Positions 18,181 through 49,732 of a stretch of DNA of 64,000 nt are shown here, one piece after another (the stretch's first letter is position 1; the number at the start of each line of letters is the position of its first letter). Below the pieces are notes generated by a model. It saw only the letters and a list, made by a program, of their open reading frames with translations, was not told the origin of the DNA and searched no databases. Made by a program: the position numbers and the translations under genes. Origin of the DNA: Lentilactobacillus parabuchneri DSM 5707 = NBRC 107865 (GTDB lineage: Bacteria > Bacillota > Bacilli > Lactobacillales > Lactobacillaceae); contig NZ_AZGK01000004.1 in NCBI RefSeq assembly GCF_001435315.1, forward strand, positions 1 through 64,000, written 5' to 3'.

Positions 18181-18470
18181 AGAGAGTGCGGAGCAAACCG
18201 GTTAGCTTCGGAGCATTAGTGTAACACCCGCCTTTAACGCTGGGTTTGCGTTGAAGGCGGGTGTTGCACTAAGCGGACGAAGCTGGTTTGCGTAGCACAT
18301 TTAGTGTGACGAGCAACGGTTTGACATGCCGGGTAGGCTAGGCGGTTTCACAGCCGTCGGAGAGCTAAGGCCGCTTTGATTCAAATCTTGATACTGGATT
18401 TGAATCAAAGTGGCTTAGATCGCAGTGTCAGTTGCGTCGGAACACGTTTAGTGTGACGAGACCCGGTCAC
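18181..18470 (+). repeat. Family A structured repeat, copy 1: two bulged hairpins plus a truncated third
   Basis: Module 1 (18193-18291): GCAAACC, bulge GGTT, AGCTTCG on the left; CGAAGCT then GGTTTGC on the right, with a long inner stem (TTAGTG-T-AACACCC and so on). Module 2 (18313-18435): GCAAC, bulge GGTT, TGACA; TGTCA then GTTGC, with inner stem CTTTGATTCAAATC. The linker after each is G(T/A)nG-n-A-n-CAC(G/A)TTTAGTGTGACGA. A third module begins at GACCCGGTC and breaks off. Copy 1 shares 'AGAGTGCGGAGCAAACCGG' with copy 3 at 42862. Confidence 0.85.
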
Positions 18471-18506
18471 GTTGCACTTTGTTTACGGTCGTCAATCACA
18501 CCAATC

Positions 18507-18552
18507 AAAAAAGCAGCTAGCATCATGCAATCCGCATCAGTCTAACTGCTTA
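18507..18552 (-). terminator. Terminator of the GNAT gene at 18602
   Basis: On the minus strand AAGCAGTTAG pairs imperfectly with CTAGCTGCTT, followed by TTTTTT. It lies about 50 nt after the gene. Confidence 0.6.
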
Positions 18553-18601
18553 ACCATTTATCTAATATTTTAAAAGTTTCAACCCGCATTGTTGCATCAA
18601 A

Positions 18602-19039
18602 CTAATTTTGCTTAACGACAACCTTCCTCATATTGACATGCGGAATTCCAACTTCCGTGAACGGTTCACCATATTGTTCAAACCCCAGCCGCTGATAAAA
18701 CCCAATTGCGGTCTTCTGTGCCCCAAGATAAAACATTGGAGCATCTTGAAACATGGGGGATGCCAGCAGATACGCCAGCAATTGTTTCGCATATCCCTGG
18801 TTCCGGTAGGCCTTCTCCGTTGCGACTCGCTGAATATGAATACCGGCTTCAGTTACGGTCGTCCGGGCCGTCGCAACCGGTGTCCCATCAACGTATGCGA
18901 CAAAATGAATCGCGTCAGAATCGGTGCCGTCAAACTCATCGCTTTCATCAATCCCCTGTTCCTCAACAAAGACGTGGTGGCGAATGGTTCTCGCATCTTG
19001 ATAAATGGTATCTAATTGATCTGTTTGTTTAATTTCCAA
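18602..19039 (-). CDS. GNAT-family N-acetyltransferase (ElaA/YjcF-like)
   Basis: 145 residues. The opening RHHVFVEEQGI and the acetyl-CoA loop RVATEKAYRNQGYAKQLL are typical of the YjcF/ElaA-like GNAT group. The substrate is unknown. The start is a TTG at 19039, 9 nt behind GGCGG. The gene has its own terminator. It lies between two family A repeats in opposite orientation (copies 1 and 2), so the 1.1-kb unit 18181-19296 has the outline of a small cassette. Confidence 0.82.
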   Translation of the reverse strand: MEIKQTDQLDTIYQDARTIRHHVFVEEQGIDESDEFDGTDSDAIHFVAYVDGTPVATARTTVTEAGIHIQRVATEKAYRNQGYAKQLLAYLLASPMFQDAPMFYLGAQKTAIGFYQRLGFEQYGEPFTEVGIPHVNMRKVVVKQN

Positions 19040-19082
19040 AACTCATATCCGCCTACTTTTAGTATCGTTAAATGATGGCTGA

Positions 19083-19296
19083 AAACGTGCTTTACAGAGC
19101 AGCAACTTGCACCTAAGCCAACTAGTGGAGAAATCAAACTCGATTTCCATGCTTGTTGGGCTACCTGGCTGAAAAACGTGCTACACGAGCCAGCTTTTTC
19201 CGCTTAGTCCAACAACCACCTTCAACGCAAAACCAGCGTTGAAGGTGGTTGTTAAACTAATGCTCAAAAGCTAACCGGCTCGTTACGCACTCTACT
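19083..19296 (-). repeat. Family A structured repeat, copy 2
   Basis: Read on the minus strand the element begins at the TAG stop codon of the phosphatase gene (19292-19294), then AGTGCG. Module 1 (19186-19282) is CGAGCC, bulge GGTT, AGCTTTT on one side and AAAAGCT then GGCTCG on the other. Compared with copy 1, both halves of the outer stem have changed together, GCAAACC/GGTTTGC becoming CGAGCC/GGCTCG. The inner stem is AACAACCACCTTCAACGC with its complement. A second, degenerate module runs to 19083 (loop GAGTTT, linker GCACGTTTTCAGCC). Confidence 0.82.
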
Positions 19297-19948
19297 CATT
19301 AAACCCCACGACCTCCACCTTGTCGCCGTCAATTTCCAGCTTTGTCACACTGCCGTTTGCCGGGCGTTCCGTTACGTCGTACTTGCCCTTTCCATATCGT
19401 TCAACAACGCTTAGCAGTGTATTTCCATGGCTGATCAATAAGACGTTATCGCCATCTTTGATCTTGGGATTACTTTTGATCAAATCAAATCCTTGATCCA
19501 TCCGTTGCCAATACTCCTCGTTATTTTCTGCTTGGTGAAATGGATCGGCTTCCTTTAGGTAATCTTTGGCCTTGCCAATCGAGTATTTCGCCACAATATC
19601 CCCAAAAGTTGGCAAGCCATGTGGTGCGCCGGCCAAATACCACGCCTGGTTCATATCATTTCCTTCAAAGTATCCATAAAACTCTTCACGGAAAAATTTG
19701 GCTGTGATTGGTTTTTCAATGTCAGAAGCGTTATTCTTATCTAAAATTGTTTGAGCAGTCTGTTCAGCTCGAGTTGTATCACTGCAGTACGCAGCCACAA
19801 ATTTTGTGTCCTTCAGCTTTTCACCCGTATCGACCGCATTTTGGATTCCCTTTTCGGTCAAAGGCGAATTACTCCAACCCTGAAGCTTGTTATAGATGTT
19901 GAAATAGGTCTGTCCGTGACGAACCATGTACAAAGTAAATTTACTCAT
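19292..19948 (-). CDS. Histidine phosphatase (phosphoglycerate mutase-like)
   Basis: 218 residues of the cofactor-dependent PGM/histidine phosphatase superfamily: YMVRHGQTYFN carries the phosphoacceptor histidine (about residue 10) and LLISHGNTLLS the second histidine. The core is divergent from glycolytic GpmA, so it is probably a broad phosphatase. The ATG at 19948 has AAAGGA upstream; 18 extra in-frame codons beyond it look non-coding. Its stop codon TAG is the first part of repeat copy 2. Confidence 0.87.
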   Translation of the reverse strand: MSKFTLYMVRHGQTYFNIYNKLQGWSNSPLTEKGIQNAVDTGEKLKDTKFVAAYCSDTTRAEQTAQTILDKNNASDIEKPITAKFFREEFYGYFEGNDMNQAWYLAGAPHGLPTFGDIVAKYSIGKAKDYLKEADPFHQAENNEEYWQRMDQGFDLIKSNPKIKDGDNVLLISHGNTLLSVVERYGKGKYDVTERPANGSVTKLEIDGDKVEVVGFNE

Positions 19949-20111
19949 GTTGACACATCCTTTACCCTTAATAGTTAAAGTATAACAATTTTTTGGGCCC
20001 ACGTTCAGGCAAAATCAATTTAAGATTTGGGCAAAATCGCTTGATTTTTCTTTTTTCTGAGAAATTATTTGATAAGATAAAACAAGTAATTCTTTTAAGG
20101 AGCAAACCGTT

Positions 20112-22256
20112 TTGAAATATATTAATTGGGCCCTTGAAAAATGTAGTACACGCAAGGGTTTCATCGTTCTTTTAATCGTCTGCTTTTGGGCCAAAACAAT
20201 GCTGGCCTATTTTGTCGACCTTGGGCTCGGAATCACCAACCCGTTTCAATTCTTCATTGTCTTGATTAACCCATTGGCCACCACCACTTTACTACTGAGC
20301 ATTGCGCTTTACTTCAAGAAAAGCCGTTTCTTTTATCCAATCGCGCTGCTAATTGCCATTTTAAACACCGTTTTACTTTACTTAAACGTCATTTATTTCC
20401 GTGAGTTCACCGATTTTATGACCGTCAGTACCATGACTGGCTACTCCAAAGTCAACCAAGGTTTGAGCGGCAGCTCGCTCGCGCTGACTAACATCCATGA
20501 CATCCTGTATTGGATTGATTTGATCGTCATCATTGGCTTAATCGTCTTCAAAAAAATTAAAATTGATCATCGACCATTAAATAAACGGATCGGCTTGGCC
20601 GTAACGTCATTTTCGGTCTTATTTTTCGTTGTCAATCTATCGCTGGCCGAAATGGATCGACCACAGTTGCTCACCCGGACATTTGATCGGACTTACATCG
20701 TCAAATACCTTGGGCTGGACGCATTTACCGTCTATGATGGCTTGAAATCCCAGCACAATAACGACCTGCGCGCTACCGCCACCAAGTCGGAACTCAACGA
20801 TGTGCTCAAATTTACGCGCAGTCACTATGCCAAGCCAAACAAAAAATATTACGGAATTGCCAAGGGAAAGAACGTTATCGTCATCCATTTGGAAAGCTTC
20901 CAGCAATTTTTGATTGGTAAAAAAATAAACGGTCAAGAAGTGACACCGTTCTTAAATAAGCTTTATAAGAGCAAGTCCTCTTATTCATTTAGAAACTTCT
21001 TCCATCAAGTCGGCCAGGGAAAAACTTCTGATGCCGAAAACATGTTGGAAACCAGCACTTATGGTCTACCACAGGGATCCTTATTTGCCCAACTCGGCAG
21101 CGACAACACCTTCCAAGCCGCACCAGCTATTTTGAATCAACGCCGTGGCTACACCAGCGCCGTTTTCCACGGAAACATTGCCAGCTTCTGGAACCGGAAT
21201 AACGTTTATAAAAATATGGGCTACCAATACTTCTTTGACGCCAGTTATTACAACACCACCGGCGACCGCTCGTTGGGCTATGGCTTGAAGGATAAGCTGT
21301 TATTTAGAGACTCGGTCAAGTACCTGCAAAATCTCCAACAGCCATTTTACGTGAAGTACATCACCGTAACCAACCATTTCCCGTATGATTTGGACAAAGA
21401 AGATACCAATTTCAAGACCACCAATACGCAAGATAAAGTTGTCGATAATTACTTCCTGACAGCTCACTACCTCGATCAGGCGGTTCACGAATTCTATAAC
21501 TACATGAAAAAGACCGGCTTATTGAAGCACTCGGTTATCCTCTTGTATGGGGACCATTACGGGATTTCCAACTCGGAAAACACCAGCTTGGCCAAGGCTT
21601 TAGGCAAAAATCCCGACGATTGGGACGACTTTGACAACGCGCAATTGCAGCGGGTACCGCTCATCATCAACATCCCGGGTAAGAAGAACGGCTTTATTTC
21701 CAACAAATATGCCGGCGAAATTGACGTCTTGCCAACCTTGATGCACCTGCTGGGAATTAGCTCGAAACGCTACGTCCAGTTTGGCACCGACATTTTATCC
21801 AAACAACATGATCAAGTCGTAGCCTTCCGTAATCAGGATTGGGTCAGCCCGGCCTTCACGTCAATTAGCGGCGATATCTATTCCAATGAGACCGGTCAAC
21901 TGTTGAAATTAACCAAACGTCAACAGGCTCAGGTTAAAAAGGATAAGAAACGGGTCAACACCGAATTATCGCTGTCAGATTCACTGAACGAAAAGAACCT
22001 GCTTCGTTTCTACCATCCAAAGGGGTTTGAAGCAGTTGATCCCCGAAAGTACAATTACGCCGACCTTTATCAAAAAGAAAAGCGGATTGAAAAACGTTTA
22101 GGCAAGAAATCAACCAGTATCTATTCCGAAAATGGCGATAAGTCCACTTGGAAAGAGTACTTCACAGACGCGCCTGAAATCCATCATAAGACCACCGACA
22201 GCAGTCGAATCAAGATTACCAATCCAGACGCAAACAATACTGACAGCAGTCGCTAG
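20112..22256 (+). CDS. Lipoteichoic acid synthase-like sulfatase
   Basis: 714 residues: five N-terminal membrane helices (about 15-190) and an extracellular sulfatase-fold domain. The metal-binding and catalytic set is visible: Glu261 in IHLESFQ, Thr305 in GQGKTSD as the glycerophosphate-accepting nucleophile, and the LYGDHYG motif. It polymerises glycerophosphate from phosphatidylglycerol onto a glycolipid anchor. The TTG start has GGAG 9 nt upstream. It is the first of three plus-strand genes spaced by 14 nt and less. The 80-residue charged tail (DKKRVNTEL... to SSR) is unusual in length. Confidence 0.93.
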   Translation: MKYINWALEKCSTRKGFIVLLIVCFWAKTMLAYFVDLGLGITNPFQFFIVLINPLATTTLLLSIALYFKKSRFFYPIALLIAILNTVLLYLNVIYFREFTDFMTVSTMTGYSKVNQGLSGSSLALTNIHDILYWIDLIVIIGLIVFKKIKIDHRPLNKRIGLAVTSFSVLFFVVNLSLAEMDRPQLLTRTFDRTYIVKYLGLDAFTVYDGLKSQHNNDLRATATKSELNDVLKFTRSHYAKPNKKYYGIAKGKNVIVIHLESFQQFLIGKKINGQEVTPFLNKLYKSKSSYSFRNFFHQVGQGKTSDAENMLETSTYGLPQGSLFAQLGSDNTFQAAPAILNQRRGYTSAVFHGNIASFWNRNNVYKNMGYQYFFDASYYNTTGDRSLGYGLKDKLLFRDSVKYLQNLQQPFYVKYITVTNHFPYDLDKEDTNFKTTNTQDKVVDNYFLTAHYLDQAVHEFYNYMKKTGLLKHSVILLYGDHYGISNSENTSLAKALGKNPDDWDDFDNAQLQRVPLIINIPGKKNGFISNKYAGEIDVLPTLMHLLGISSKRYVQFGTDILSKQHDQVVAFRNQDWVSPAFTSISGDIYSNETGQLLKLTKRQQAQVKKDKKRVNTELSLSDSLNEKNLLRFYHPKGFEAVDPRKYNYADLYQKEKRIEKRLGKKSTSIYSENGDKSTWKEYFTDAPEIHHKTTDSSRIKITNPDANNTDSSR

Positions 22257-22270
22257 GGGGCAGATCAGTC

Positions 22271-23062
22271 ATGAAACGAGATTCTATGAAATTAAGAATT
22301 TTACTTTACAACATCTTGGTCGTCTCATTGGCCTTGGTCTCGTTTGTCCTGGCGATTCTGGCACTGGTCACTAAGATCACCCTCAGCCAAGGGCCATACC
22401 GAGTTGTCTTCACACTCATATGGCTCTTTTTCCTGATTGATTATTTAGTTCGATTTAAACGTGCCAAATCAAAAAAAGATTTCTTGATCTCGAATTTGTT
22501 TGACCTGATTGCCCTCATCCCGTCGCACCCGATTTTCATATTTTTCCGGATCGCGCGTATTTACACCATCGTCAGGTACTATAACCTACTGTGGCGGTTT
22601 GGTCTGTCGGGAAAGTTTACCAATGCGCTGCACAAATTTTTATACGACACTGGTTTTATTTACCTGTTGTCAATCAGTTTGGTCATTTTGATCTTTAGTT
22701 CATTGATCTTTGCTTCGTTCGAGCACGATTCACTTCAGAATTCGCTCTGGTGGGCAATTTCGACCGCCACCACCGTCGGGTACGGGGACATCACTCCGAA
22801 AACGGATGGCGGTAAAATTATTTCGGCCGTCCTCATGCTCGGCGGAATTGGTTTTATTGGTTTACTGACTTCCACAATTACGGATTTCTTCACATCACAA
22901 GACACCCACGTGGATCAAACCGAAGCGCTTAAAGAATTGGCCAAGCAGGTTAACCACCTCTCACGGCAGGTCAACCAGATGCAAAAAGAACTTAAGAAAG
23001 AACAGGGCCAGCAAAAGCCCGCCCCAAATCGTTCCCATAAGAAAAAGTCAGGAGGTCGTTGA
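22271..23062 (+). CDS. Voltage-gated-type potassium channel subunit
   Basis: 263 residues. The selectivity filter TTVGYGD is at 167-173 between the pore helix (SLWWAISTA) and the last membrane segment. The segment FFRIARIYTIVRYY (about 91-104) resembles a weak S4. The C-terminal 60 residues form a Lys/Gln-rich amphipathic coiled coil (LAKQVNHLSRQVNQMQKE). It should let K+ cross the membrane. It sits 14 nt after the LTA synthase gene and meets the UvrA-like gene, so it belongs to that operon. Confidence 0.9.
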   Translation: MKRDSMKLRILLYNILVVSLALVSFVLAILALVTKITLSQGPYRVVFTLIWLFFLIDYLVRFKRAKSKKDFLISNLFDLIALIPSHPIFIFFRIARIYTIVRYYNLLWRFGLSGKFTNALHKFLYDTGFIYLLSISLVILIFSSLIFASFEHDSLQNSLWWAISTATTVGYGDITPKTDGGKIISAVLMLGGIGFIGLLTSTITDFFTSQDTHVDQTEALKELAKQVNHLSRQVNQMQKELKKEQGQQKPAPNRSHKKKSGGR

Positions 23063-23067
23063 TTTAT

Positions 23068-25326
23068 ATGTTTGAACATGGTGCCATCGAAGTGCATGAC
23101 GCTTACCAGAATAATTTAAAATACGTTGATTTAAGGATTCCTAAATACGCCATCACGGTGTTTGCAGGACTCTCCGGTTCGGGGAAATCATCATTGGTTT
23201 TTGATACCATCGCTGCGGCATCCAGACGGGAATTAAACGAAACCTTCCCCAGCTTTACCCAGCAATATTTACCAAAATATGGCCAACCCCACGTCAAAGA
23301 AATTGCCCACCTGCCCGTTGCAATTGTGATTGAACAAAAGCGGATCGGCAAAAATGCCAGGTCGACACTTGCCACTTATACCGGCATTTATTCACTACTG
23401 CGGCTATTGTTCTCGCGGGCAGGAACCCCATTTGTCGGCTACTCCGATACCTTTTCATTCAATCTGCCACAAGGAATGTGCCAAAAGTGCCAAGGGCTCG
23501 GCTACGTTGATGATATTGACGCAAAGGCGTTGATCGACCCCGAAAAGTCACTAAATGAAGGGGCGATTACCTTTGTCAGTTTTGGTCCCAACACATGGCG
23601 TTGGCGCCGTTACGCTTATAGCGGCTTGTTTGACAATGATAAGCCCCTTAAAGATTACACCGAAGAAGAAATGCAGACACTGCTTTATGCACCCCAGCAT
23701 CAATTAAAGGACGCGCCGGAAAAGTGGCCGAGAACCGCCTTATATGAGGGCGTGATCCCCAGAATTCGCCGCTCCATTATCGGTAAACGCGAAGCCCAGC
23801 ACCATAAAGAAGCCATCGACAAAATCGTCACCCGAAGGCCCTGCCCAGCCTGTCACGGAACGCGTTTGCGGCCAGAAGTCTTGGGATGTAAGATCAACGG
23901 CAAAAACATCGCCGATTTACTTTCAATGGACTTGGTTCATGCCTTAAAATTTCTCCATGAAATCAACGTCCCGTTGGTGACCGATGTTATCCGGGAGGTT
24001 GCGACCAAGATTCAATCTTTAATCGACATTGGATTGGGTTATTTAACCTTGGACAGAAGTACCGAAACGCTTTCCGGTGGCGAAACTCAGCGAATCAAGA
24101 TTGCTAAATTCTTGACCAGTGCCTTGGTGGACATGGTCTACATTTTGGATGAACCCAGCGTCGGCCTGCATCCCCACGACATTCAATTAATCAAAAACGC
24201 CTTGATTAACCTCAAAAATAAGGGCAACACCATCATGGTCGTCGAACACAATCCCGAGTTAATCCCGATCGCCGACTACGTTGTTGAAATCGGGCCACAG
24301 GCTGGTCGCGCCGGCGGTCAAGTCACGTTTACCGGGACCTACGAACAATTGCTAAATTCGGACACGATGACTGGCCGTTATCTCAAGCGGCCCCTGGCCT
24401 ACCGCACGCCAAGAAAATTTGATCAAACAATTCAACTGAACCATGTCACGACCCATAACTTAAAAGATGTCACCGTCAACATCCCCTTAGGCGTCGAAAC
24501 GGTCATTTCCGGGGTTGCCGGGTCTGGTAAAAGTTCATTGGTTGATGCGTTGCGCCCGAGACTGCACGAACCTTACATCGATCTCGCTCAGGGAGCAATT
24601 GGTACCAATATCCGCTCGACGCCTGTCACTTATTTGGATATCTTGGATGACATCAGAAAGATTTTTGCCCAGGTATCCGGTGCGTCTACCAGCCTATTTA
24701 GTTACAACGGCAAGGGCGCTTGTCCGCGCTGTAAAGGTAAGGGCGTCACGATTACCAACATGGCGTTCATGGATCCGGTGGTTCAAAAATGCGAAATGTG
24801 TGACGGTAAGCGGTACAACGACGAGGCATTGAGTCATTTGTATCACGGGAAAAACATCAGTGAGGTGCTCAACTTGCCAATTGAATCGGCAATTGACTTC
24901 TTTGCCGACACACCAAAAATCTACGACAAGCTCGTCAACATGCAAAAAGTTGGTTTGGATTACCTTACTCTTGGCCAGCCACTGACAACGTTATCCGGCG
25001 GTGAACGCCAGCGATTGAAATTGGCTGTTCAGCTTAATCAAACCGGAACCATTTACCTGTTGGATGAACCGACTGCCGGCCTGCACATGAAAGACGTTGC
25101 AAAGCTCATCAAGCTATTTGATGAATTAGTCGCTGCCGGCAACACGCTGATCATCGTCGAACACAATTTGGCTGTTATCAGTCAAGCGGATTGGCTGATT
25201 GATGTCGGTCCGGACGCTGGTATTTACGGCGGTGAGATTCTCTATTCAGGATTGCCTAAAGCCTCGCAAAATGAACCACGGTCTCGAACTGGCGCGGCAT
25301 TGAAACAGTATAATTTGGATCGGTAA
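23068..25326 (+). CDS. Short UvrA-like ABC ATPase (UvrA paralogue)
   Basis: About 752 residues, against roughly 940 for true UvrA. Two ATPase modules are present: Walker A GLSGSGKSS near residue 32 and GVAGSGKSS near 485, with signatures LSGGETQRI and LSGGERQRL. Three or four CxxC pairs (CQKC, CPAC, CPRC, CEMC) form the zinc modules. The UvrB-binding region is reduced or absent. Such paralogues occur in antibiotic-producing or -resistant bacteria, and their job is unclear. I prefer ATG 23068 to TTG 23059, which is only 3 nt behind AGGAGG. Confidence 0.88.
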   Translation: MFEHGAIEVHDAYQNNLKYVDLRIPKYAITVFAGLSGSGKSSLVFDTIAAASRRELNETFPSFTQQYLPKYGQPHVKEIAHLPVAIVIEQKRIGKNARSTLATYTGIYSLLRLLFSRAGTPFVGYSDTFSFNLPQGMCQKCQGLGYVDDIDAKALIDPEKSLNEGAITFVSFGPNTWRWRRYAYSGLFDNDKPLKDYTEEEMQTLLYAPQHQLKDAPEKWPRTALYEGVIPRIRRSIIGKREAQHHKEAIDKIVTRRPCPACHGTRLRPEVLGCKINGKNIADLLSMDLVHALKFLHEINVPLVTDVIREVATKIQSLIDIGLGYLTLDRSTETLSGGETQRIKIAKFLTSALVDMVYILDEPSVGLHPHDIQLIKNALINLKNKGNTIMVVEHNPELIPIADYVVEIGPQAGRAGGQVTFTGTYEQLLNSDTMTGRYLKRPLAYRTPRKFDQTIQLNHVTTHNLKDVTVNIPLGVETVISGVAGSGKSSLVDALRPRLHEPYIDLAQGAIGTNIRSTPVTYLDILDDIRKIFAQVSGASTSLFSYNGKGACPRCKGKGVTITNMAFMDPVVQKCEMCDGKRYNDEALSHLYHGKNISEVLNLPIESAIDFFADTPKIYDKLVNMQKVGLDYLTLGQPLTTLSGGERQRLKLAVQLNQTGTIYLLDEPTAGLHMKDVAKLIKLFDELVAAGNTLIIVEHNLAVISQADWLIDVGPDAGIYGGEILYSGLPKASQNEPRSRTGAALKQYNLDR

Positions 25327-25334
25327 TACAGAAT

Positions 25335-25400
25335 TTTCAGACAAAAAGAGCGGTCGAGTCAAAACTAAACGTTTTGCTTCGACCGCTTTTTGAGTCTGAA
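25335..25400. terminator. Bidirectional terminator between UvrA-like gene and ferredoxin-NADP reductase gene
   Basis: AGCGGTCGAG with CTTCGACCGCT, an upper stem CAAAAC/GTTTTG, outer bases TTCAGAC and GTCTGAA, then TTTTT. It is nearly a copy of the 4099 terminator, including the loop TAAAC. Confidence 0.88.
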
Positions 25401-25452
25401 TGCTCCCAGCTGAATTGTACGCAAAGTAGCAGCTATTTGTCCCACACTCTGA

Positions 25453-26445: not shown

Positions 26446-26453
26446 GATATCTC

Positions 26454-27684: not shown

Positions 27685-28641
27685 ATGGCTCAGAAAAAAA
27701 TGATTCTTGACCTTGATACCGGTATTGATGACGCAATGGCAATTGCTTACGCGGTCGCCGATCCCGATGTTGACTTAATTGGCATTATCGGTTCCTACGG
27801 TAATGTTTACGTTGAAGATGGTGTTCAAAACTCACTGAAGATTCTGGAACTTCTGGGAGCAACAGACGTCCCTGTTTATCAAGGATTGTCTCACTCATCT
27901 GAATCCGATCACTTCGACCGGATGCCGGTTAGTGCCCAAATTCACGGCGAAAACGGCATCGGTGATGTTCAACTTCCCGATCCAAAACGACAACCGGAAA
28001 CAGGCGACGCAATCGACTTCTTCATTGATGCGGTTAAGAAATATGGTAAGGACTTAATTTTGGTTCCAACTGGTCCACTGACCAATTTGGACGCTGCCAT
28101 TCAAAAAGCCCCTGAAATTACCAAAGAAATCGGCAACATTACCATCATGGGTGGTGCCGTCACCGTTCCCGGCAACGTCACCAACGTTGCAGAAGCCAAC
28201 ATTCAACAGGATGCCACGGCCGCTGACCACGTCTTTAGAAAAGCCCCACTGACACAAGTTGGCCTGGACGTTACTTTGAGAACCCTCTTAACTTACAAAG
28301 AAACCCAACAGTGGCGTGACCTGCACACCAAGTCAGGTGAAGCGTTCGCCGACATCGTTGATTACTACATCAAGGCCTATGAAGTGACCAGCCCGGATCT
28401 CCACGGTTGCGCACTTCACGATCCATTTGCGGTTGGTGTGGCGATTAATCCTGATTTTGTTCAAACAATCGGCTTGAACATGTACGTCACTACCGACGAA
28501 AAATACTACGGCCGAACAACTGGTGATCCAGCTCGCCTGGATGATCCAAATACAAACGTCAAAGTTGCCGTTAATGCGGATGTTGACGCCTACTTGAAAG
28601 CATTCATGGAACACCTTACGGGCTTGTTCAGCAAACACTAA
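27685..28641 (+). CDS. Nucleoside hydrolase (inosine/uridine preferring type)
   Basis: 318 residues. The DLDTGIDDAMA motif at residue 8 holds the calcium-binding aspartates, and MGGAVTVPGNVT and the late HDPFAVG motif complete the active site. It splits ribonucleosides to ribose and free base in the cytosol, feeding purine and pyrimidine salvage. It has a good ribosome binding site (GGAGG), its own terminator and no cotranscribed partner. Confidence 0.93.
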   Translation: MAQKKMILDLDTGIDDAMAIAYAVADPDVDLIGIIGSYGNVYVEDGVQNSLKILELLGATDVPVYQGLSHSSESDHFDRMPVSAQIHGENGIGDVQLPDPKRQPETGDAIDFFIDAVKKYGKDLILVPTGPLTNLDAAIQKAPEITKEIGNITIMGGAVTVPGNVTNVAEANIQQDATAADHVFRKAPLTQVGLDVTLRTLLTYKETQQWRDLHTKSGEAFADIVDYYIKAYEVTSPDLHGCALHDPFAVGVAINPDFVQTIGLNMYVTTDEKYYGRTTGDPARLDDPNTNVKVAVNADVDAYLKAFMEHLTGLFSKH

Positions 28642-28673
28642 ACTTGAATTTCCACCACACAAAAACTTCCAAA

Positions 28674-28729: not shown

Positions 28730-29095
28730 GGATTTGGCTGGGTTGGCTCCGCCTGCCATAGTGGCTTCGATTTCAAGCCTGTAGTCTTGAAATCCGAAGG
28801 TGTTGTAATCACCGCTTCTTGCGGTGAAACAACACTAACACTATGGCTGGCAATGCCAACCCAGCCAAATCAGGCTACTTTAAAAGGGTTATCCTTGGCA
28901 GCTTGACTGTTTAGCTGACTTCTGGGGTGGTCATTGGCATTGCCAACCGCAGTGGAAATGTTGGCTTGCCAACATCCTTGTATTTCGAGACTACAGGCTC
29001 GAAATCAAGGTCACTGCGGTAGGCGGAGCCGATGACCACCCCAGACCACGCAGTATCCGGTTCGAGTGGCAGGCGGAGCCAACCCAGCCAAATCC
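28730..29095. repeat. Family B structured element with 29-bp inverted ends and two cruciform units
   Basis: A 29-bp perfect inverted repeat bounds the element (28730-28758 and 29067-29095). Unit B1 (28731-28871) and unit B2 (28922-29044, opposite orientation) each form an outer stem, a conserved 7/7 internal loop (TCCGCCT facing TGGCAAT), a second stem, then two small hairpins. One hairpin has the fixed loop CCTGTAGT. The stems differ between units but pair in each. There is no open reading frame. It fills the gap between a terminator and the metalloprotease stop. Confidence 0.85.
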
Positions 29096-29111
29096 TAAAC
29101 ATTAAGAATTT

Positions 29112-38905: not shown

Positions 38906-39027
38906 TTTTGTACCTCATCAATTCAAATTTCTCGTCATAAATATACCACATTCATCATTTCCGTACCGAGATTTGGTGATTAGAAAAAATGCAGTATAAT
39001 ATAAGTAATGAACAGGACGGTGATCAA

Positions 39028-39438
39028 ATGTTTCCAGAACGATTACGAGCATTAAGAAAGGGCCAGCAATTGACCTTGGTTGAATTGGCAGATGCACTGA
39101 ACAAGAAGCTTCCTACTGACAAAGAACATGAAAACACTGGCTCCCAGATCGGAAACTGGGAACGGGGAATTAGAACGCCAAGTTATGTCGAAATTCAAAG
39201 ACTGGCGAAATTTTTCGATGTCACCATGGATTATTTGACGGGATTAACGGAAACCAGCACTTATGACCTGGCACGCTTATTCATTTCAGATAAGTCCTTA
39301 CAGTTTAACGGCGTCAATTTAAGCTCCAAGGACCGCTACGAGATTTATCAACTTATTTCGGGATACGTCCATGGAAGAGGCAACACCAACAGAGACGACG
39401 GGCCGCGATTGGAACAGGGGTCACTGGACTTGAAGTAG
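39028..39438 (+). CDS. XRE-family transcriptional regulator
   Basis: 136 residues. The N-terminal helix-turn-helix (about 5-65) reads LRALRKGQQLTLVELADALN...IGNWERGIRTPSYVEIQRLAKFF, the usual Cro/CI form. The C-terminal part is an unassigned domain of about 60 residues. The ATG at 39028 is preceded by GGACGG; upstream in-frame ATG codons sit in the promoter region. Its TAG stop opens a small hairpin of the family A type. The divergent hydrolase gene is a candidate target. Confidence 0.85.
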   Translation: MFPERLRALRKGQQLTLVELADALNKKLPTDKEHENTGSQIGNWERGIRTPSYVEIQRLAKFFDVTMDYLTGLTETSTYDLARLFISDKSLQFNGVNLSSKDRYEIYQLISGYVHGRGNTNRDDGPRLEQGSLDLK

Positions 39439-39462
39439 TGACGGGTTCGTCAAAACACGTTT
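39436..39462 (+). repeat. Minimal family A element at the XRE stop codon
   Basis: TAG (stop codon) is followed by TGACG, loop GGTT, CGTCA, then AAACACGTTT. The 4-nt GGTT and the terminal ACACGTTT match the bulge and linker of the large copies. There is no poly-T run, so it does not look like a terminator. Confidence 0.55.
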
Positions 39463-40960: not shown

Positions 40961-41105
40961 TAATCTAAATCTCCATTACATTCGAGTTGTCCAATGGGAT
41001 AATTGTACCATATCACAATCATATATGAGTTGGTCTCGCTTGACTCGGCTGACTTGTTTCGCCACAATGATGGTATAAATTGTTAACACGAAAGGATCGA
41101 CTCTT

Positions 41106-42521: not shown

Positions 42522-42523
42522 TA

Positions 42524-42862
42524 ATGCATAAAGTTGTCTTTCATGTCGATGAGCTGGATAAGTGGGACCACACGTTGAGCAATATTACCAATCTAATTGA
42601 CTATGGCCAAGAAAATAAGGAACAATACCACATTGTTGTTTTGGTAAATGGTGACGCGATCGAAGGCTACCTTGACCAACAATTAAGAAGCAAGGTCACC
42701 CAATTCAGCGATGAAGGTGTGAGGTTCCATGCCTGCAATAATTCGATGAATACCCACGGCATCACGGAAAGTCAGTTGCCGGAAGATGTGGAAATTGTCT
42801 CGGCGGGAGTGGCGGACTTGGTGTCGCTGCAGGAGCAGGGATTTGCGTATGTAAAGGCGTAG
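42524..42862 (+). CDS. DsrE/DsrF-like small protein
   Basis: 112 residues with the alpha/beta pattern of the DsrE family (VVFHVDELDKWDHTLSNI..., HIVVLVNGDAIEGYL, VRFHACNNSMN, VEIVSAGVADLVSLQEQG). A cysteine at about residue 67 corresponds to the usual thiol position in sulfur-relay DsrE members. It may move sulfur or bind a nucleotide; the true role is unknown. It begins 2 nt after the DUF2252 stop. Its own TAG stop is the first base triplet of repeat copy 3. Confidence 0.85.
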   Translation: MHKVVFHVDELDKWDHTLSNITNLIDYGQENKEQYHIVVLVNGDAIEGYLDQQLRSKVTQFSDEGVRFHACNNSMNTHGITESQLPEDVEIVSAGVADLVSLQEQGFAYVKA

Positions 42863-43165
42863 AGTGCGGAGCAAACCGGATTACTTTTGAGCATTAGTTT
42901 AATTAGAGTCTTTGACGCGGGTCTTGCGTCGGAGACTCTAATTGGACTAAGCGGAGAAAGTTGGTTTGCGTAGCACGTTTAGTGTGAGCCAGGGCGGTCA
43001 GCAACCGGAGTGTAAGCTGGCTTGGGGTGAAATCGACTTTGATTTCATCCCAAGGTGGCTTACATGCAGGTTGTTGCCCTGGGGAACACGTTTTATCCAA
43101 GTAACAGTATCACAACCCCATTTAGAGGCTTACCTCAGCTGTGTCTCCTTTCGTTTGCCGTCGTC
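42860..43165 (+). repeat. Family A structured repeat, copy 3 (two modules plus degenerate third)
   Basis: It begins at the TAG stop (42860-42862) followed by AGTGCGGAGC. Module 1 (42871-42969): GCAAACC, bulge GGATT, ACTTT against AAAGTT and GGTTTGC; inner stem AATTAGAGTC...GACTCTAATT. Module 2 (42989-43082): CCAGGGC, bulge GGTC, AGCAACC against GGTTGTT then GCCCTGG; inner stem GTAAGC, CTTGGGGTGAAATC with loop GACTTT. One pair is a G-T wobble. Linkers are GTAGCACGTTTAGTGTGAG and GGAACACGTTTTATCC. A degenerate third module ends in GTCGAAACACATTTAATCAG near 43160. Confidence 0.85.
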
Positions 43166-43226
43166 GAAACACATTTAATCAGCCAACCAAACAACCACAT
43201 TGTAACAACCATCAAAAAACATACAC

Positions 43227-43261
43227 AAAGCGGGTCGGAAAAAATTCCGACCCGCTTTTCT
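43227..43261. terminator. Bidirectional terminator before HAD phosphatase
   Basis: AAAGCGGGTCGGAA pairs with TTCCGACCCGCTTT around AAAA. It follows repeat copy 3 and the DUF2252-DsrE operon, and serves the minus-strand HAD gene. Confidence 0.82.
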
Positions 43262-43271
43262 ATACATTAAA

Positions 43272-43928: not shown

Positions 43929-44139
43929 GTGATACCCACTTTCGTTTTTGTGTTGATATCTAACCATTATCAGGGGTTTGAAAACAAAAATCAAGTATTG
44001 CCAAGAATGAAGCCAATCCCCCCCTCCTTGGTATGCAAATGCCGCTGTGTTAGAAGAAACATTTCATGATTCCAATTTTACTGACAGATAGAAAGTAGTA
44101 TATTAAAAGTATCAAAAAAAAGAAAGGATCCGGTAACAC

Positions 44140-44919
44140 ATGATACTCACTTTTGCTTTTCTAATTATTGCCGGGTTCGCTGCGGGTCTGCTTGCTTCGG
44201 TTGCTGGATTGGCCTCTTTAGTGTCGTATCCAGCCTTACTGGCAGTCGGCCTGCCACCCGTCATTGCCAACGTCACCAATACCACTGCTTTGATTTTCTC
44301 AGGGATCGGCTCCACCGTTTCATCTCTCAGAGAACTCCACGGTCATTGGAAAAAATTATTGGTTTTTGTTGGCCTGGCGTTAGTCGGAAGTATCGGTGGC
44401 AGTTCATTATTACTGGTGCTTCCCGCCTCATCATTTCAAAAAGTCGTTCCGCTTTTCATCGCATTTGCCGGTGTCTTACTCTTTATGTCTGGGCGAAAAA
44501 AAGACCTGTCCACTCAGAAATTAAAAAAAGCCAGCGAGACACCTGCCCATCACTTTTGGATTTCATTCATCAGTTTCATTGGCATTATATTGGTGGGCGG
44601 TTACACGGGTTACTTTGGTGCTGCCGGTGGCGTCATCTTTTTAGCAATCCTGTCAGTGATTACCGATGACAGGTTTGCGGTTGTCAACGCCATGAAAAAC
44701 GTGATTTCCTTTGCCGGTAACCTAGTTGCGACGATCATTTTTATTTTCAAGTCCAACATTAATTGGCTATACGTCATCCCGCTTGGGTTCGGCCTGCTTA
44801 TCGGTGGGTACACGGGACCAATTATTGTCCGCCACGCCAATATCCACCTGCTGCGAATTTTGATTTCATTGGCAGCCTTTGGTCTGGCTGGGTATTTGTT
44901 TGTGGAAGCTTATTTCTAA
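44140..44919 (+). CDS. TSUP family (TauE/SafE) membrane transporter
   Basis: 259 residues with about eight hydrophobic segments and the two family repeats (GFAAGLLASVAGLASLVSYP and VGGYTGYFGAAGGVIFLAIL). TSUP proteins carry sulfite, sulfoacetate, organosulfonates or related anions. The substrate is unknown. AAAGGA precedes the ATG and a terminator follows. Confidence 0.87.
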   Translation: MILTFAFLIIAGFAAGLLASVAGLASLVSYPALLAVGLPPVIANVTNTTALIFSGIGSTVSSLRELHGHWKKLLVFVGLALVGSIGGSSLLLVLPASSFQKVVPLFIAFAGVLLFMSGRKKDLSTQKLKKASETPAHHFWISFISFIGIILVGGYTGYFGAAGGVIFLAILSVITDDRFAVVNAMKNVISFAGNLVATIIFIFKSNINWLYVIPLGFGLLIGGYTGPIIVRHANIHLLRILISLAAFGLAGYLFVEAYF

Positions 44920-44930
44920 AATTATGACCA

Positions 44931-44966
44931 ATAAAGGAGCTCCTCAAGTTGAGGAACTCCTTTATT
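44931..44966. terminator. Terminator between TSUP gene and arcD
   Basis: ATAAAGGAGCTCCTC and GAGGAACTCCTTTAT form a nearly perfect stem. The T-rich stretches on both sides allow action on either converging gene. Confidence 0.85.
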
Positions 44967-44987
44967 GATTGGTTATTAACCGATATT

Positions 44988-46424
44988 TTAGAACGTAATT
45001 TTACCGACAATCAACCCATAAATTGCGTAAACGGCAGCAATCACAATCAAAATGGCTAAAGTCATTTCAACTGGGCCGAAAACTTTTTTGGCATGATTAT
45101 CTTTTTTCTGCAAAATCCAATAAACTGGAATCCCAGCAGCAAACAGCAGTGACATTAACAGCAGGTAATTTGTACCAGCCGCAAACAACAGCCAGCATGC
45201 ATAGATACTTGAGATCGCGCCGATAACAATGTTTCCAACTCGGCCCTTACCATGATCCAAAGTAACCGAGTACTTCAGTTGATAGAAGGCTGAAAATGCG
45301 TATGGAATCAAAATTGCGGCACTGGCAATTGAATAGAAGAAATTATAAGCAGATGCTGTAATCAGGTATGAAAACATGAAAAGTTCCACACAGACGTTGG
45401 TAACAGTTAACGACGTAATTGGAGCGCCATTTTTGTTTTCCTTGGCAAAGATCTTTGGGAACGTTCCTTCTTTAGCTGCTTCGTATGGCAATTGACCGGC
45501 AAACATCGTCCATGAGAGCCAGGCACCAACAACAGAAATGATTAATCCGCCGTTAACGACCATTGCCCCCCATTTACCAACCAGACTCTGAAGTAACTCA
45601 GCCATTGCGGGTTGAGACAAATGAGAAAGTCCGGCACGACTCATAACACCGAATGATAGCAATGTAACTAACATATAAATCAAAATAACGGTAATAATTC
45701 CAAGAACGGTTGCTTTACCAACGTCAGAACGCTTGCGGGCCCGACCAGAGAAGACAACGGCGCCTTCAATTCCGATAAATACCCAAACTGTTACCAACAT
45801 CGTGCTCTTGGCTTGTGACATGACATTTGCAAACTCAAATTTACCACTTGGTGTGTACCAGAAATCACTGGTAAACATATTCATCTTGAATGCAAATAAC
45901 ACGATAAGGATAAACAAGAAAATTGGAATTAATTTTGCAATCGTAATAATCGTGTTCACAAATGAAGCTGATTCAACGCCTCGAAGAATCATAAAGTGAC
46001 ATGCCCAAAGGATGAATGATGCGGCAATAATTGACCAAATGTTTTGGCCATTTCCAAAGACTGGTAAGAAGTAGGCAACGGCACTCATTAGCAGCGTCGC
46101 ATAACCCACGTTTCCCAGCCAGGCAGACAGCCAGTAACCCCATGCGGAGTTAAAACCCATGTACTTACCAAATCCGGCTTCAGCGTAACTATAAACCCCG
46201 GCATCCAGATCCGGACGCTTCATGGTTAAGTTCTGGAACGTTAAAGCCAACATGACCATTCCAATAGCTGTAATAACCCAGCCAATGATAATGGCACCTG
46301 CACCGGCTCCCACGGCCATATCGTGCATCAGGTTGAAGACCCCACCACCAATGATGGACCCGACAACTAATCCGACCAGCTCGAGTAGGCCTAATTTACC
46401 ATCATGCTCTTTCATGTAGCTCAC
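44988..46424 (-). CDS. arcD: Arginine/ornithine antiporter (APC superfamily)
   Basis: 478 residues with twelve or more hydrophobic segments of the basic amino acid/polyamine antiporter type (GLVVGSIIGGGVFNL, then PDLDAGVYSYAEAGFGKYMG). It exchanges external arginine for internal ornithine at no proton cost, completing the ADI pathway. It is the last gene of the arcA-arcB-arcC-arcR-arcD set, 16 nt behind arcR. Confidence 0.93.
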   Translation of the reverse strand: MSYMKEHDGKLGLLELVGLVVGSIIGGGVFNLMHDMAVGAGAGAIIIGWVITAIGMVMLALTFQNLTMKRPDLDAGVYSYAEAGFGKYMGFNSAWGYWLSAWLGNVGYATLLMSAVAYFLPVFGNGQNIWSIIAASFILWACHFMILRGVESASFVNTIITIAKLIPIFLFILIVLFAFKMNMFTSDFWYTPSGKFEFANVMSQAKSTMLVTVWVFIGIEGAVVFSGRARKRSDVGKATVLGIITVILIYMLVTLLSFGVMSRAGLSHLSQPAMAELLQSLVGKWGAMVVNGGLIISVVGAWLSWTMFAGQLPYEAAKEGTFPKIFAKENKNGAPITSLTVTNVCVELFMFSYLITASAYNFFYSIASAAILIPYAFSAFYQLKYSVTLDHGKGRVGNIVIGAISSIYACWLLFAAGTNYLLLMSLLFAAGIPVYWILQKKDNHAKKVFGPVEMTLAILIVIAAVYAIYGLIVGKITF

Positions 46425-46440
46425 TCCCCTAGATATTTAA

Positions 46441-47142
46441 TTAAAATGACTCATCGTCAACCTCTAAAATTTTGAAGTATTTTCGGTTGTATTGAATCTT
46501 GTTTTCAGCAATTAACTGCTGAACCATCTGACTCGTTGTTTCCCTCGTGGTCCCGCTGACCTTCGAAAGTTCAACCAGCGTAATTGGATATGGGACCAAG
46601 ATCGTTTCATCAGCCTGCAAATCGCCGATCTGTTGGCCAATAAATAAAATCGCGTTCCACACCCGACACTTGGCGCTGGTTGTGACCATCCGTTGAAGTT
46701 GTGTCTCAGACGTATCGATAATCTTGCTCATTTCTTTAACGGCGTTTTCCATGAGCTCTGGGTTTTCACGCAGAATTTGTTCATAGACTGGCATTGGGAA
46801 TTCGGCAATTTTCACCTCAGTCATGGTTTCAACGGTATACGCATATCGATCAGCTTCGAATAAGCCGATATACGGAAAGGCTTTTTGAGGACGAATATAA
46901 AGATACAATTGTTCTTCGCCATTTTTATCCCAGTGAAACGACTTGGCAACCCCTTCGATTAAATAGTAAAACCTATCCCGCGTATCGCCCTGATCAAATA
47001 GGATCTGACCGCGGTGATAGGTTTTAATTGTCATTTCGTCAATCAACTGATTAATATATTTATCACTCAGCGGACTGAATTCTGGATGGCTGCGCAGTTT
47101 CTCCGCATAATACTTATAATCACTTTTATTCTTTAAAATCAT
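46441..47142 (-). CDS. arcR: Crp/Fnr-family regulator of the arginine deiminase cluster
   Basis: 233 residues: a cyclic-nucleotide-binding-like beta roll (about 25-130, TYHRGQILFDQGDTRDRFYYLIEGVA) and a C-terminal winged HTH (VELSKVSGTTRETTSQMVQQL, about 185-205). No cysteine cluster of an Fnr type is seen. ADI-linked members activate arc genes when arginine is present and oxygen or energy is low. The position between arcC and arcD supports the arcR name. A candidate target site lies upstream of arcA. Confidence 0.85.
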   Translation of the reverse strand: MILKNKSDYKYYAEKLRSHPEFSPLSDKYINQLIDEMTIKTYHRGQILFDQGDTRDRFYYLIEGVAKSFHWDKNGEEQLYLYIRPQKAFPYIGLFEADRYAYTVETMTEVKIAEFPMPVYEQILRENPELMENAVKEMSKIIDTSETQLQRMVTTSAKCRVWNAILFIGQQIGDLQADETILVPYPITLVELSKVSGTTRETTSQMVQQLIAENKIQYNRKYFKILEVDDESF

Positions 47143-47259
47143 TCCGACACTCCCAAAAACGGTTACATAATTATGTTCTCAGTAAAGTGTACCTCAAATC
47201 ACGTCATTGTACATTAAACGCGTCTAAGCAGATTTTAAGGATAAAATAATTTGAACACG

Positions 47260-48201
47260 CTATTTTGCCGAAATAATTGTCCCGGAACCATCATTGATAA
47301 AGCCTTCGATATTGTCTAAGGCAGTCACAACGGCTTCGTTCCCTGTGGCTTCAACAAAATCAATTGCTGCTTGAACCTTTGGCAGCATGCTTCCTGGAGC
47401 AAATTGGTTCTCATCAATATATTTGTGAAGATCAGAAACCGGCACGTGTTCAAGCTTCTTTTGGTCGGGTTTGTTGAAGTTAACAAAAATATTTGGTACG
47501 GCCGTTAAAATGATCAGGGCATCGGCACCAACCAATTCAGCTAATTTTTCGCTGGCAAAATCTTTATCGATAACTGCTTCCTTACCAACCAAGCGACTGC
47601 CATCGCTAACAACCGGCACGCCACCGCCACCAACCGAAATTGGCACAATTCCTGCGTCAACCAACGCATTAACTGCTTTGGTTTCGACGACCCCAATTGG
47701 TTTGGGTGATGGAACAACGCGACGATAGCCACGTCCGGCGTCTTCAACAAATGTGAAATCCGGATTTTGCTTCTTAGCCAAATCTGCATCTTCTTCACTC
47801 ATGAACGGACCGATTGGCTTAGTTGGATTGGCAAATGCCGGGTCATTGGCACTGACCTCAACCTGGGTCACAACAGTGGCAACCGTCTTGTCGAGTCCTT
47901 TTTCATTGATCACTTCGTTCATGGCATTTTGCATCCAATAACCGATACTTCCCTGTGTCATTGCCACACATGAATCCAGTGGCATTTCAGGGTTGTCGTG
48001 AGTGCTGCCGGCTGCTTGTTGGAGCAACAGGTTACCAACTTGTGGTCCGTTTCCGTGAGAAATGATCAGCTGGTCGCCATTTTCAATAAATTTAACCAAA
48101 TGCTCCGCAGTGTCACGCAATGCTTGTTGCTGTGCTGCTGCAGAAGCATCTTTTGATAGGATAGCATTGCCTCCCAGGGCAACTACGATTTTACGTCCCA
48201 T
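47260..48201 (-). CDS. arcC: Carbamate kinase
   Basis: 313 residues of the amino acid kinase fold. The N-terminal [12 protein letters not shown], the [11 protein letters not shown] motif and the segment [20 protein letters not shown] are diagnostic. It transfers the phosphate of carbamoyl phosphate to ADP, giving ATP, CO2 and ammonia, the energy-yielding step of the ADI route. GAAGGAG precedes the ATG. A strong hairpin lies just upstream, between it and arcB. Confidence 0.97.
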
Positions 48202-48231
48202 AATACATTCTCCTTCGTCTTAGAAAATAAT

Positions 48232-48272
48232 AAGGGACTGGGACAAAACAAATGTTTTGTTGCCAGTCCCTT
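48232..48272 (-). terminator. Intercistronic hairpin between arcB and arcC
   Basis: AAGGGACTGG pairs with CCAGTCCCTT, with an upper stem ACAAAAC/GTTTTGT. After it the minus strand reads TTATTATTTTC, not a true T run, so it may be a weak terminator, a processing site or a stability element. Confidence 0.6.
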
Positions 48273-48299
48273 GTATTGTTGAGCTATTTTTCAAGGTGG

Positions 48300-48370
48300 G
48301 TACTAGGCTGAAATGTGTTTTGGCTAATGCCTAGTTGAAACGTGTTCGAAGCAATGGATGATGCTTCTTA
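48300..48370 (-). repeat. Degenerate family A element directly after arcB
   Basis: On the minus strand the arcB stop codon TAA is followed at once by the hairpin GAAGCA...TGCTTC and then CGAACACGTTTCA, the family A linker. A second small palindrome CTAGGC...GCCTAG with AAACACATTTCA in its loop follows. Confidence 0.6.
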
Positions 48371-49399
48371 CACTCTAGGAATAAATAAATTACCTAACGT
48401 TGCGGCCATCATTGCCTTGATGGAGTGCATTCTGTTTTCTGCTTCTTCGAATTGACGAGCATACTTGCTGGTGAACACTTCATCAGTAACTTCCATTTCG
48501 GTAATGCCATACTTCTTCTCAATATCCTTACCGTATTCGGTTTCGGTATTGTGGAATGCTGGTAGGCAGTGCATGAAGATTAATTGATCGTCAGGAGTGC
48601 CGGTCTTCTTCAAGGCTTCCATGTTAACTTGGTATGGTGTTAGCAATTTAACACGTTCTTCCCAGTTACTTTCACCCATTGATACCCATACATCGGTATA
48701 AACAATGTTTGAACCCTTCATACCTTCATCAAGGTCATCGGTGATCAAAAGCTTTGCGCCTGACTTTTCAGCAAAACCTTTGGCAATGCCTTGGATTTCA
48801 TCTGTTGGGAACAATTCCTTTGGTGAAACGATGTGAATGTTAACGCCTAAGATTGCACCGGTTACCAAGAGCGAGTTGGCAACGTTGTTACGACCATCAC
48901 CCATGAATGTCAAAGTTAAGCCTTGGAGTTTGCCAAAGTTTTCCTTAACGGTCATGAAGTCAGCCAACATTTGAGTTGGATGCCATTCGTCAGTCAAACC
49001 ATTCCATACTGGAACACCACTGTCTCGGGCAAGGATTTCAGCATCACTTTGCTTGAAGCCACGGAATTCAATTCCATCAAACATGCTGCCAAGAACCTTA
49101 GCAGTATCTGAAGTAGATTCCTTCTTACCTAATTGGATGTCGCCTGATCCCAAGTATTCTGGGTGGGCACCAAGATCAATTGCAGCAGTGGTAAATGCTG
49201 AACGGGTCCGAGTTGATGACTTTTCAAATAGAAGCGCAATGTTTTTGCCTTCCAAATAATGGTGAGGAACGTTAGCCTTCTTTAAAGCCTTAAGATGTAA
49301 ACCAAAGTCAATTAAATATTCGAGTTCAGCAGCAGTAAAGTCTTTTTCGGCTAAAACACTACGTCCTTGAAATACGTTTTGTTTGAAATCTTTTGTCAT
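48368..49399 (-). CDS. arcB: Ornithine carbamoyltransferase, catabolic
   Basis: 343 residues. Carbamoyl phosphate binding motif SSTRTRSAF (about 57-65), HCLPAFH and the ornithine-binding late motif are all intact. In the ADI pathway it runs backwards, splitting citrulline with phosphate into ornithine and carbamoyl phosphate. The ATG at 49399 follows AAGGAGAAT at usual spacing. Its 3' end abuts a degenerate family A element, and its 5' flank holds a full family A copy. Confidence 0.97.
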
Positions 49400-49424
49400 A
49401 ATCGAATTCTCCTTGATGATTGAA

Positions 49425-49732
49425 TTTTGATGGGTTGGTGAAAGTTTGGAACGATCTGTGTCTCGTCACGCTCTGATCTAAACGCGCTTCGACGACCCTG
49501 GCCCCTACTGTGTAAGTCAAAAATTCCAACGATGAACAAACCCCGTTCATCATTACAATTTTCGTCTTACACTCCGGGGCCAACCCGGGTCTCGTCACGC
49601 TCTGATTTAAACGCGCTTCGACGCAACTGATGCTAACTTCTAAGTGTCCTTTGATCAAAGTCCCAAAACCAGGGACTTCAATCAAAGCACACTTAGAAAC
49701 CGCATCACCCGTTGCTTGTCACGCTCTGATTA
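49425..49732 (-). repeat. Family A structured repeat, copy 4, inside the arcA-arcB gap
   Basis: On the minus strand arcA's TAA (49730-49732) is followed by TCAGAGCGTGACAA, the family A leader. Module 4b (49623-49715): GCAAC, bulge GGG, TGATGC against GCATCA then GTTGC, with inner stem TTCTAAGTGT and its complement. Module 4a (49494-49591): GACCC, bulge GGGT, TGGCCCC against GGGGCCA then GGGTC, with an inner stem GTTCATC/GATGAAC. The linker GTCGAAGCGCGTTTA-n-ATCAGAGC separates them. A truncated third unit follows near 49440. Confidence 0.85.

Follow-up and report, generated by a model that had tools for sequence, protein, structure and literature searches.

The 64-kb window analysed here (positions 1 to 64,000 of contig NZ_AZGK01000004.1 of Lentilactobacillus parabuchneri DSM 5707, part of the contig designated C34 in a genome of 2.57 Mb and 50 contigs) carries, at seven sites, members of a family of large bulged hairpin modules. 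The modules share a fold, covary in a strand-specific manner, mostly start at a stop codon in the sense of the upstream gene, and differ between species. The shape is kept although nearly every paired letter changes, a combination that indicates a previously undescribed kind of element with a role at the ends of genes. We put at about one half the probability that the window sites are dispersed non-coding hairpin elements, folded in the sense strand at gene 3′ ends, with a function at stop codons like that of the repetitive extragenic palindromic (REP) sequences. The covariation signal is strong over many genera of lactic acid bacteria and their relatives, no Rfam entry was found for it, and metabolic genes, arcA and arcB among them, have these elements at their ends.

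Module architecture and covariation

The large copies are hairpins of ∼114–123 nt comprised, from 5′ to 3′, of a 4-bp end stem, a small loop, a first stem (7 bp in the main type and 5 bp in a second type), a bulge on the left side only, a second stem of 6–7 bp, an internal loop, a long inner stem and a CACGTTT end. Modules start with (A)GAGTGYG and end with RCACRTTT, and the bulge is 3–5 nt long, reading GNNT in the main type. Tandem copies are spaced by ∼124 nt, one array in the genome holding five modules, and the upstream flanks are variable. A preliminary description made from the sequence of the window had listed six sites of covarying hairpins; all six are present, four of them with full modules, and full-module sites fold much better than shuffled sequence (Table 1). 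At the window sites the GGTT-like bulge does lie on the left side only, the stems change and wobble pairs occur, as that description had it; what it treated as a separate linker is the 3′ end of one module joined to the 5′ beginning of the following one. Its list lacked a seventh site, the decayed copy at 4701–4819.

Covariation was judged from pair counts compared with 500 shuffles and with slid partners, in place of R-scape. Two covariance models were used, R1 (26 modules) and R2 (45 diverse modules). A set of 29 modules was taken from the R1 matches in 20 fetched loci of seven other genera, with shadows, fragments and one duplicate excluded, these loci having ranked highest under a model whose own scoring favours pairing. 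The stems of these relatives differ yet still pair, with 94.3% of cells paired versus 67.9% in the shuffles. Both-side changes were found in 21 of the 25 pairs (16.1 shuffled), and 194 cells were changed on both sides compared with 55.5 shuffled and at most 53 with slid partners; one of the five measures, further pair types, gave only 56 versus 50.0 and was equalled by 11 of the 500 shuffles. Among 45 modules of the main layout from several families, both-side changes occurred in 37 of 41 pairs and in 590 cells (180.6 shuffled), with a covariation score of 0.795 as compared with 0.202 shuffled and at most 0.185 slid, and none of the 500 shuffles matched any measure. In this set 91.1% of cells pair, a percentage that leans upward because the rows were picked by a test that uses pairing, which 55 of the 167 collected modules pass; most of those that fail are of the second type, nested or truncated. 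The C–G pair beside the bulge is invariant (45/45), and the next two pairs are nearly so. Selection on a folded nucleic acid, as proposed in the preliminary description, is thus supported by covariation and by pairing in related genomes.

The imperfections of the stems reveal which strand folds. Under a stem-mismatch score that treats G-T and A-C alike and counts isolated mismatches, the 87 modules of the genome contain 106 G-T, eight A-C and 36 other mismatches, and 33 modules from relatives contain 47, four and six, respectively. G-T mismatches therefore far exceed A-C mismatches, which identifies one strand as the folded one; in the majority of clusters this is the strand that encodes the upstream gene. 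Comparison of 47 disjoint module pairs (80–99% identity) gave 104 base pairs that were changed on both sides and still pair as compared with seven that do not, whereas one-sided changes kept a G-T pair 112 times and broke the pair 84 times (20 of them to A-C); because the copies are related, these mismatch and change counts do not represent independent events.

Several variations on the module were also observed. Small hairpins of ∼30–40 nt (CTAGRC..GYCGTCG), which form a second, smaller repeat family, lie within CG^GAG internal loops of some modules, as judged from the copies looked at (Table 1). An unpaired tail, CNACTAGGTAAYAG with more A-rich sequence, recurs on the 3′ side of CACGTTT (for example C23:67516, C47:97593 and C12:100620), and another subfamily ends in GGAGCATAGCTC..GAAGGGAGC instead.

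Position relative to stop codons

For the analysis of position, 94 matches in the genome were grouped into 66 clusters, and co-oriented frames of at least 70 codons were considered. In 50 of the 66 clusters the distance from a co-oriented stop codon to the start of the first module falls in the range −13 to +12 nt, and in 47 in the range −1 to +7 nt. In 19 of the 50 the beginning of the element overlaps a TAG stop, and in three further clusters the co-oriented frame ends 22–45 nt inside the module. Random positions and orientations in the gene gaps of the same stretches gave 5.0% (P about 2 × 10⁻⁴⁹ for at least 49). As a control, frames of at least 70 codons that end from the opposite side came within 250 nt in 30 of 66 cases, the nearest at 30 nt. 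Clusters in the plus and in the minus orientation are found on a single contig, each following its gene (four plus and four minus on C34; three of each on C23). This position in the sense of the upstream gene had been missed in the preliminary description. Of the seven window sites, six begin no more than 8 nt from the stop codon of a co-oriented gene (LysM, histidine-phosphatase-family, helix-turn-helix (HTH), DsrE-family, arcA and arcB).

The same arrangement is found elsewhere. In other genera, 19 of 20 sampled loci (seven genera) have a nearby co-oriented frame end, again with frames of at least 70 codons, which in 17 of the 19 lies at −22 to +7 nt; two of the 17 (L140 and L141) are near-identical loci and come from two genera. 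Outside the taxonomic family of the host, 18 of 42 array starts are located −1 to +7 nt from a co-oriented frame of at least 100 codons, and on an annotated Enterococcus faecium plasmid a coding sequence ends and a module follows 6 nt behind.

Table 1. Modules, remnants and nested hairpins, with the evidence for each and the genes they adjoin (window coordinates unless a locus is given; z, folding relative to shuffles)
Feature	Position	Strand	Evidence	Context
Decayed module	4701–4819	−	R1 41.5 bits (E 7.4e-8), R2 43.7 bits	7 nt behind stop codon (4827–4829) of LysM-domain gene (Pfam) 4827–5432 (−)
Full module	18184–18302	+	R1 94.8 bits, R2 112.9 bits; z −11.7 (18190–18470)	between two minus-strand genes
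Second tandem module	18302–18449	+	covariance-model match	small hairpin (∼18328–18359) nested in internal loop
Third, truncated module start	∼18453–18470		sequence
Remnant of second module	19083–19173			next to 19174–19292 module
Full module	19174–19292	−	R1 96.4 bits, R2 119.4 bits; z −8.0 (19080–19300, one full module and remnant)	TAG AGTG start overlaps stop of histidine-phosphatase-family gene 19292–20002 (−); distance −1
Miniature remnant, module ends only, 27 nt	39436–39462	+	sequence; not called by R1 or R2	begins on TAG stop (39436–39438) of HTH gene 38989–39438 (+)
Full module	42862–42980	+	R1 91.6 bits, R2 106 bits; z −12.8 (42860–43110)	TAG AGTG start overlaps stop of DsrE-family gene 42524–42862 (+); distance −1
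Second tandem module, other stem type CCAGGGC/GCCCTGG	42980–43093	+	sequence, R1	terminator-like hairpin downstream (∼43225–43260)
Mini-module GAGTGTAA-GAAGC..GCTTC-GAACACGTTTCAACTAGG	48300–48376	−	z −4.75; not called by R1 or R2; same ends as full modules	arcB (ornithine carbamoyltransferase, 48368–49399, −) ends at TAA 48368–48370, 8 nt inside; amino-acid-kinase gene downstream
Truncated third module start	towards 49425			after 49480–49602 module
Second tandem module, other stem type GACCC/GGGTC	49480–49602	−	R1 57.9 bits, R2 66.3 bits
Full module	49609–49726	−	R1 89.5 bits, R2 63.3 bits; z −9.5 (49420–49760)	3 nt behind stop of arcA (arginine deiminase, 49730–50962, −), between arcA and arcB
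Nested small hairpins	18328–18359; L011:4177–4324; L013:4087–4273; L031:3972–4128

Distribution and turnover between species

The family extends far beyond the lactobacilli, which the preliminary description had also missed. A blastn search with window 18181–18470 gave 55 matches in the genome and R1 gave 95, a few entries in both lists being reverse-strand shadows of palindromes. R1 matched 22 of 41 genomes, namely the genome itself, 20 of 23 other members of the genus (G002 being a marginal match) and one marginal match elsewhere. When a sample of the host's family was searched, R1 matched 76 of 151 genomes, belonging to 22 of the 40 genera sampled. In the sample of the order, R1 was found in 18 of 198 genomes, 11 of them outside the family and several with single weak matches, and in that of the class R2 was found in 29 of 348 genomes (E ≤1e-4), including tandem arrays in other orders. 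These surveys scored no more than 10–89 candidates in any genome, so that weak matches may be lost and copy numbers are lower bounds.

Modules are also carried by plasmids. With a module from one genome of the order as query, similar sequence was found in 75 plasmid records, of which 58 were from Enterococcus and 13 from Lactococcus, and R2 confirmed tandem modules in two E. faecium plasmid records. A plasmid of L. buchneri bears a similar copy, and an exact 29-nt module string recurs in contigs of L. kefiri, L. otakiensis, L. dabitei and L. sunkii. A search of a phage collection gave no match to window 18181–18470. Loci L140 and L141 share an identical module and near flank in two different genera, which may reflect transfer or contamination. 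An E. faecium plasmid holds a long hairpin between two asnS copies (L170:797–933) that was not called by R2 and that resembles a microRNA (miRNA) precursor model at 63 bits, below gathering.

Orthologous gene ends were compared for 22 of 28 queried clusters in five other genomes of the genus, giving 60 stretches. An R1 module was located at the same place in 28 of these and none was detected by R1 in 30, with two stretches cut short; at least two of the 30 R1-empty stretches show a module by eye (L110 and L120). At occupied sites the best identity to the module of our genome was 54–94%, so that a position is often retained although a different module occupies it. Among the module-free sites seen, the stop codon is followed by a terminator-like hairpin, by the next gene or by a module remnant. 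In G021, a module has removed the last few codons of a gene and provides the stop codon (L117). Species differ both in which gene ends are occupied and in the kind of module found there. When 19 proteins encoded upstream of modules in other genera were compared with 53 upstream proteins from sites in our genome, one reached 80% identity (L136) and another 53% (L132), and some weaker hits were also obtained. Two relatives' loci (L098 and L084) contain remnant-like modules in which ends or tail are kept and the hairpin is gone, suggesting palindrome deletion.

Possible role, known repeats and alternative explanations

The position of the modules suggests a way in which they could act. Transcription would place the element at the beginning of the 3′ untranslated RNA or of the intercistronic gap, and a terminating ribosome could open the weak 4-bp end stem beneath it. 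The first strong stem begins ∼9 nt into the module; with starts at −1 to +7 nt, this stem lies 8–16 nt behind the stop codon in 47 of the 66 clusters, at the edge of the ribosome. Such a hairpin might slow the clearing of the last ribosome from the stop codon and might block 3′-to-5′ decay, thereby tuning the output of the upstream gene. It is by analogy with a subset of Escherichia coli REP elements, found within 15 nt of the stop codon and reported to stall ribosomes (PMC12306157, citing its reference 17), that a 3′ barrier to termination and decay, borne by a mobile repeat, appears the favoured mechanism. The fixed C-GNNT-AG/CT-G bulge is a likely, putative recognition site of a protein or of the enzyme that spreads the element. 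We hold more tentatively, at somewhat less than even odds, that these are class-wide (Bacilli-like) mobile structured RNAs homing to translation termination, in which the bulge-marked sense strand is recognised and insertion or retention is tied to the stops of transcribed genes, a portable 3′ end free in sequence and fixed in shape. If the modules do act on termination or decay, they would constitute a portable layer of post-transcriptional control in Gram-positive bacteria.

Several observations weigh against such a role in the sense strand at stop codons. In the genome, 13 of the 66 clusters lack any co-oriented stop between −45 and +12 nt, the 18184 copy being the sole window site away from a stop codon, and the exceptions include an oppositely oriented module pair inside a T-box leader; beyond the host's family, 24 of the 42 array starts are away from any recognised stop, although some of these may have undetected upstream neighbours. 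The excess of G-T is weaker in the 29 modules from other genera (18 G-T, seven A-C and 18 other mismatches). A strand-specific fold with fixed bulges would also fit a single-stranded DNA transposon or a recombination site. Finally, the same genes rarely bear modules in different genera, and gene-specific regulation across genera was therefore rejected and a gene-specific regulatory role is unsupported. The T-box leader in question (L030:3689–4194) scores 62 bits, under its gathering score of 93, and the module pair occupies its linker from stem III to the antiterminator.

No known RNA family was matched by the modules searched, and this reading was rejected. Rfam 15 gave no gathering hits in the window, and in 17 further loci searched at permissive E-values the only overlaps with modules were sub-gathering miRNA-type hits and a T-box holding two modules. 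A full-text literature search, with few subscription journals, found no account of hairpin repeats at stop codons in lactobacilli.

Small mobile structured repeats are nonetheless a known kind of element (REP, BOX, RUP, EFAR and bcr). REP sequences are palindromes of 20–50 nt preceded by a conserved GTAG-type tag; they are associated with a Y1 transposase, and within bacterial interspersed mosaic elements (BIMEs) their orientations alternate. The units described here differ in being ∼118 nt long, mostly in gene sense, and in having variable upstream flanks. The targets of EFAR are hairpins and are not known to be stop codons. The attC sites are recognised as a folded strand, with fixed unpaired bases and free stems, and lie directly behind stops in gene orientation. 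In their fixed unpaired bases and free stem sequence behind stops the present modules resemble them, but the attC core motifs (RYYYAAC/GTTRRRY) were found together at the ends of none of 94 modules, which led to the rejection of attC, and the modules in the window adjoin ordinary genes, for example arcA and arcB.

The closest parallels were compared by description. REP elements of E. coli are high-copy imperfect hairpins with a conserved stem irregularity and strand-specific recognition (PMC8266576, in part), and the present modules are likewise strand-specific hairpins with a conserved irregularity. According to PMC12306157, 446 of 4,072 predicted REPs (about 11%) lie within 15 nt of a stop codon, and 260 of 496 in an older study, as compared with 50 of 66 clusters at −13 to +12 nt here. 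The Efa-1 repeat of Enterococcus faecalis (163 nt, 65 copies) forms structured, intergenic double hairpins, according to the accessible text of PMC2267715, in which the phrase "stop codon" is absent; EFAR/Efa-1 is alike in being intergenic, structured and present in dozens of copies, a likeness at the level of description. EFAR may be a local branch, because the present modules occur on E. faecium plasmids, and it is possible that part of the family has already been named otherwise, above all as EFAR/Efa-1 in E. faecalis. The bcr1–bcr18 repeats are dispersed, intergenic and present in transcripts, some with conserved folds, and bcr3 correlates with mRNA decay (accessible text of PMC3446304); they differ, again by description, in having been described for the Bacillus cereus group and in that this text gives no stop-codon placement. 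The present family differs from all of these in combining free stems and a fixed bulge with folding of the sense strand, placement at stop codons and occurrence in many genera of a class.

The principal alternative, somewhat less likely in our view, is a purely selfish mobile hairpin whose copies are useless to the host: an enzyme would recognise the folded single strand, as DNA or RNA, and insert it at gene ends, and the covariation would reflect the need for recognition in trans. The high copy number, the tandem arrays and the copies on plasmids favour this, as do sites empty in some relatives and filled by other modules in others, the insertion into the T-box leader, the last codons cut off a gene by a module (L117), the small hairpins nested within modules, and host genes rarely common to different genera. 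However, there is no candidate enzyme. Neither PF01797 (Y1/REP-type transposase) nor PF00078 (reverse transcriptase) was found in the genome, other enzyme families not having been searched, and mobilisation by a REP-associated tyrosine transposase (RAYT) or by a reverse transcriptase was rejected for this reason. PF01797 is found in seven of 24 genomes of the genus, some of them rich in R1 matches (G016, G010 and G005) and one without any (G023), and is absent from the R1-rich G004, G013 and G021; PF00078 is scattered over eight of the 24. The module ends show by eye no common target duplication of the kind expected from miniature inverted-repeat transposable elements (MITEs), insertion sequence ends not having been searched. 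A mechanism tied to the replication strand fails to explain adjacent opposite orientations, each with its gene, and the narrow sense position requires either an enzyme that senses gene ends or selection. Were the element selfish, the problem would become how a mobile element finds stop codons.

It is very improbable, and already disfavoured, that hairpin arm-copying (template switching) during replication keeps the stems perfect with no selection on the fold. The inner stems are long and nearly perfect and both arms change together, as such copying would produce, but it predicts equal numbers of G-T and A-C intermediates, where the genome has 106 and eight, and eroded unpaired features, where the bulge and internal loops persist together with the invariant C–G pair. 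Scarcely less improbable is that the modules are intrinsic transcription terminators. A strong hairpin at the 3′ end of a gene is followed by a conserved TTT, and in 47 of 66 clusters a simple scan detected no further terminator-like site ahead of the next gene; against this, a long U tract is missing, as 61 of the 63 modules whose end is clear have only 3–5 T among the 9 nt behind the stem, a distinct terminator-like site comes further on in 19 of 66 clusters, a co-oriented gene is next downstream in 35 of 66, and modules also lie between the cistrons of the arc genes. The modules may nevertheless act as terminators at some sites.

Other inverted repeats were observed in the window. Long ones, with arms of 29–61 nt and no R1 match, occupy 28730–29095, between genes ending at 28641 and 29112. 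Two terminator-like hairpins located far apart (4101–4153 and 25349–25401) are alike, with 79% identity.

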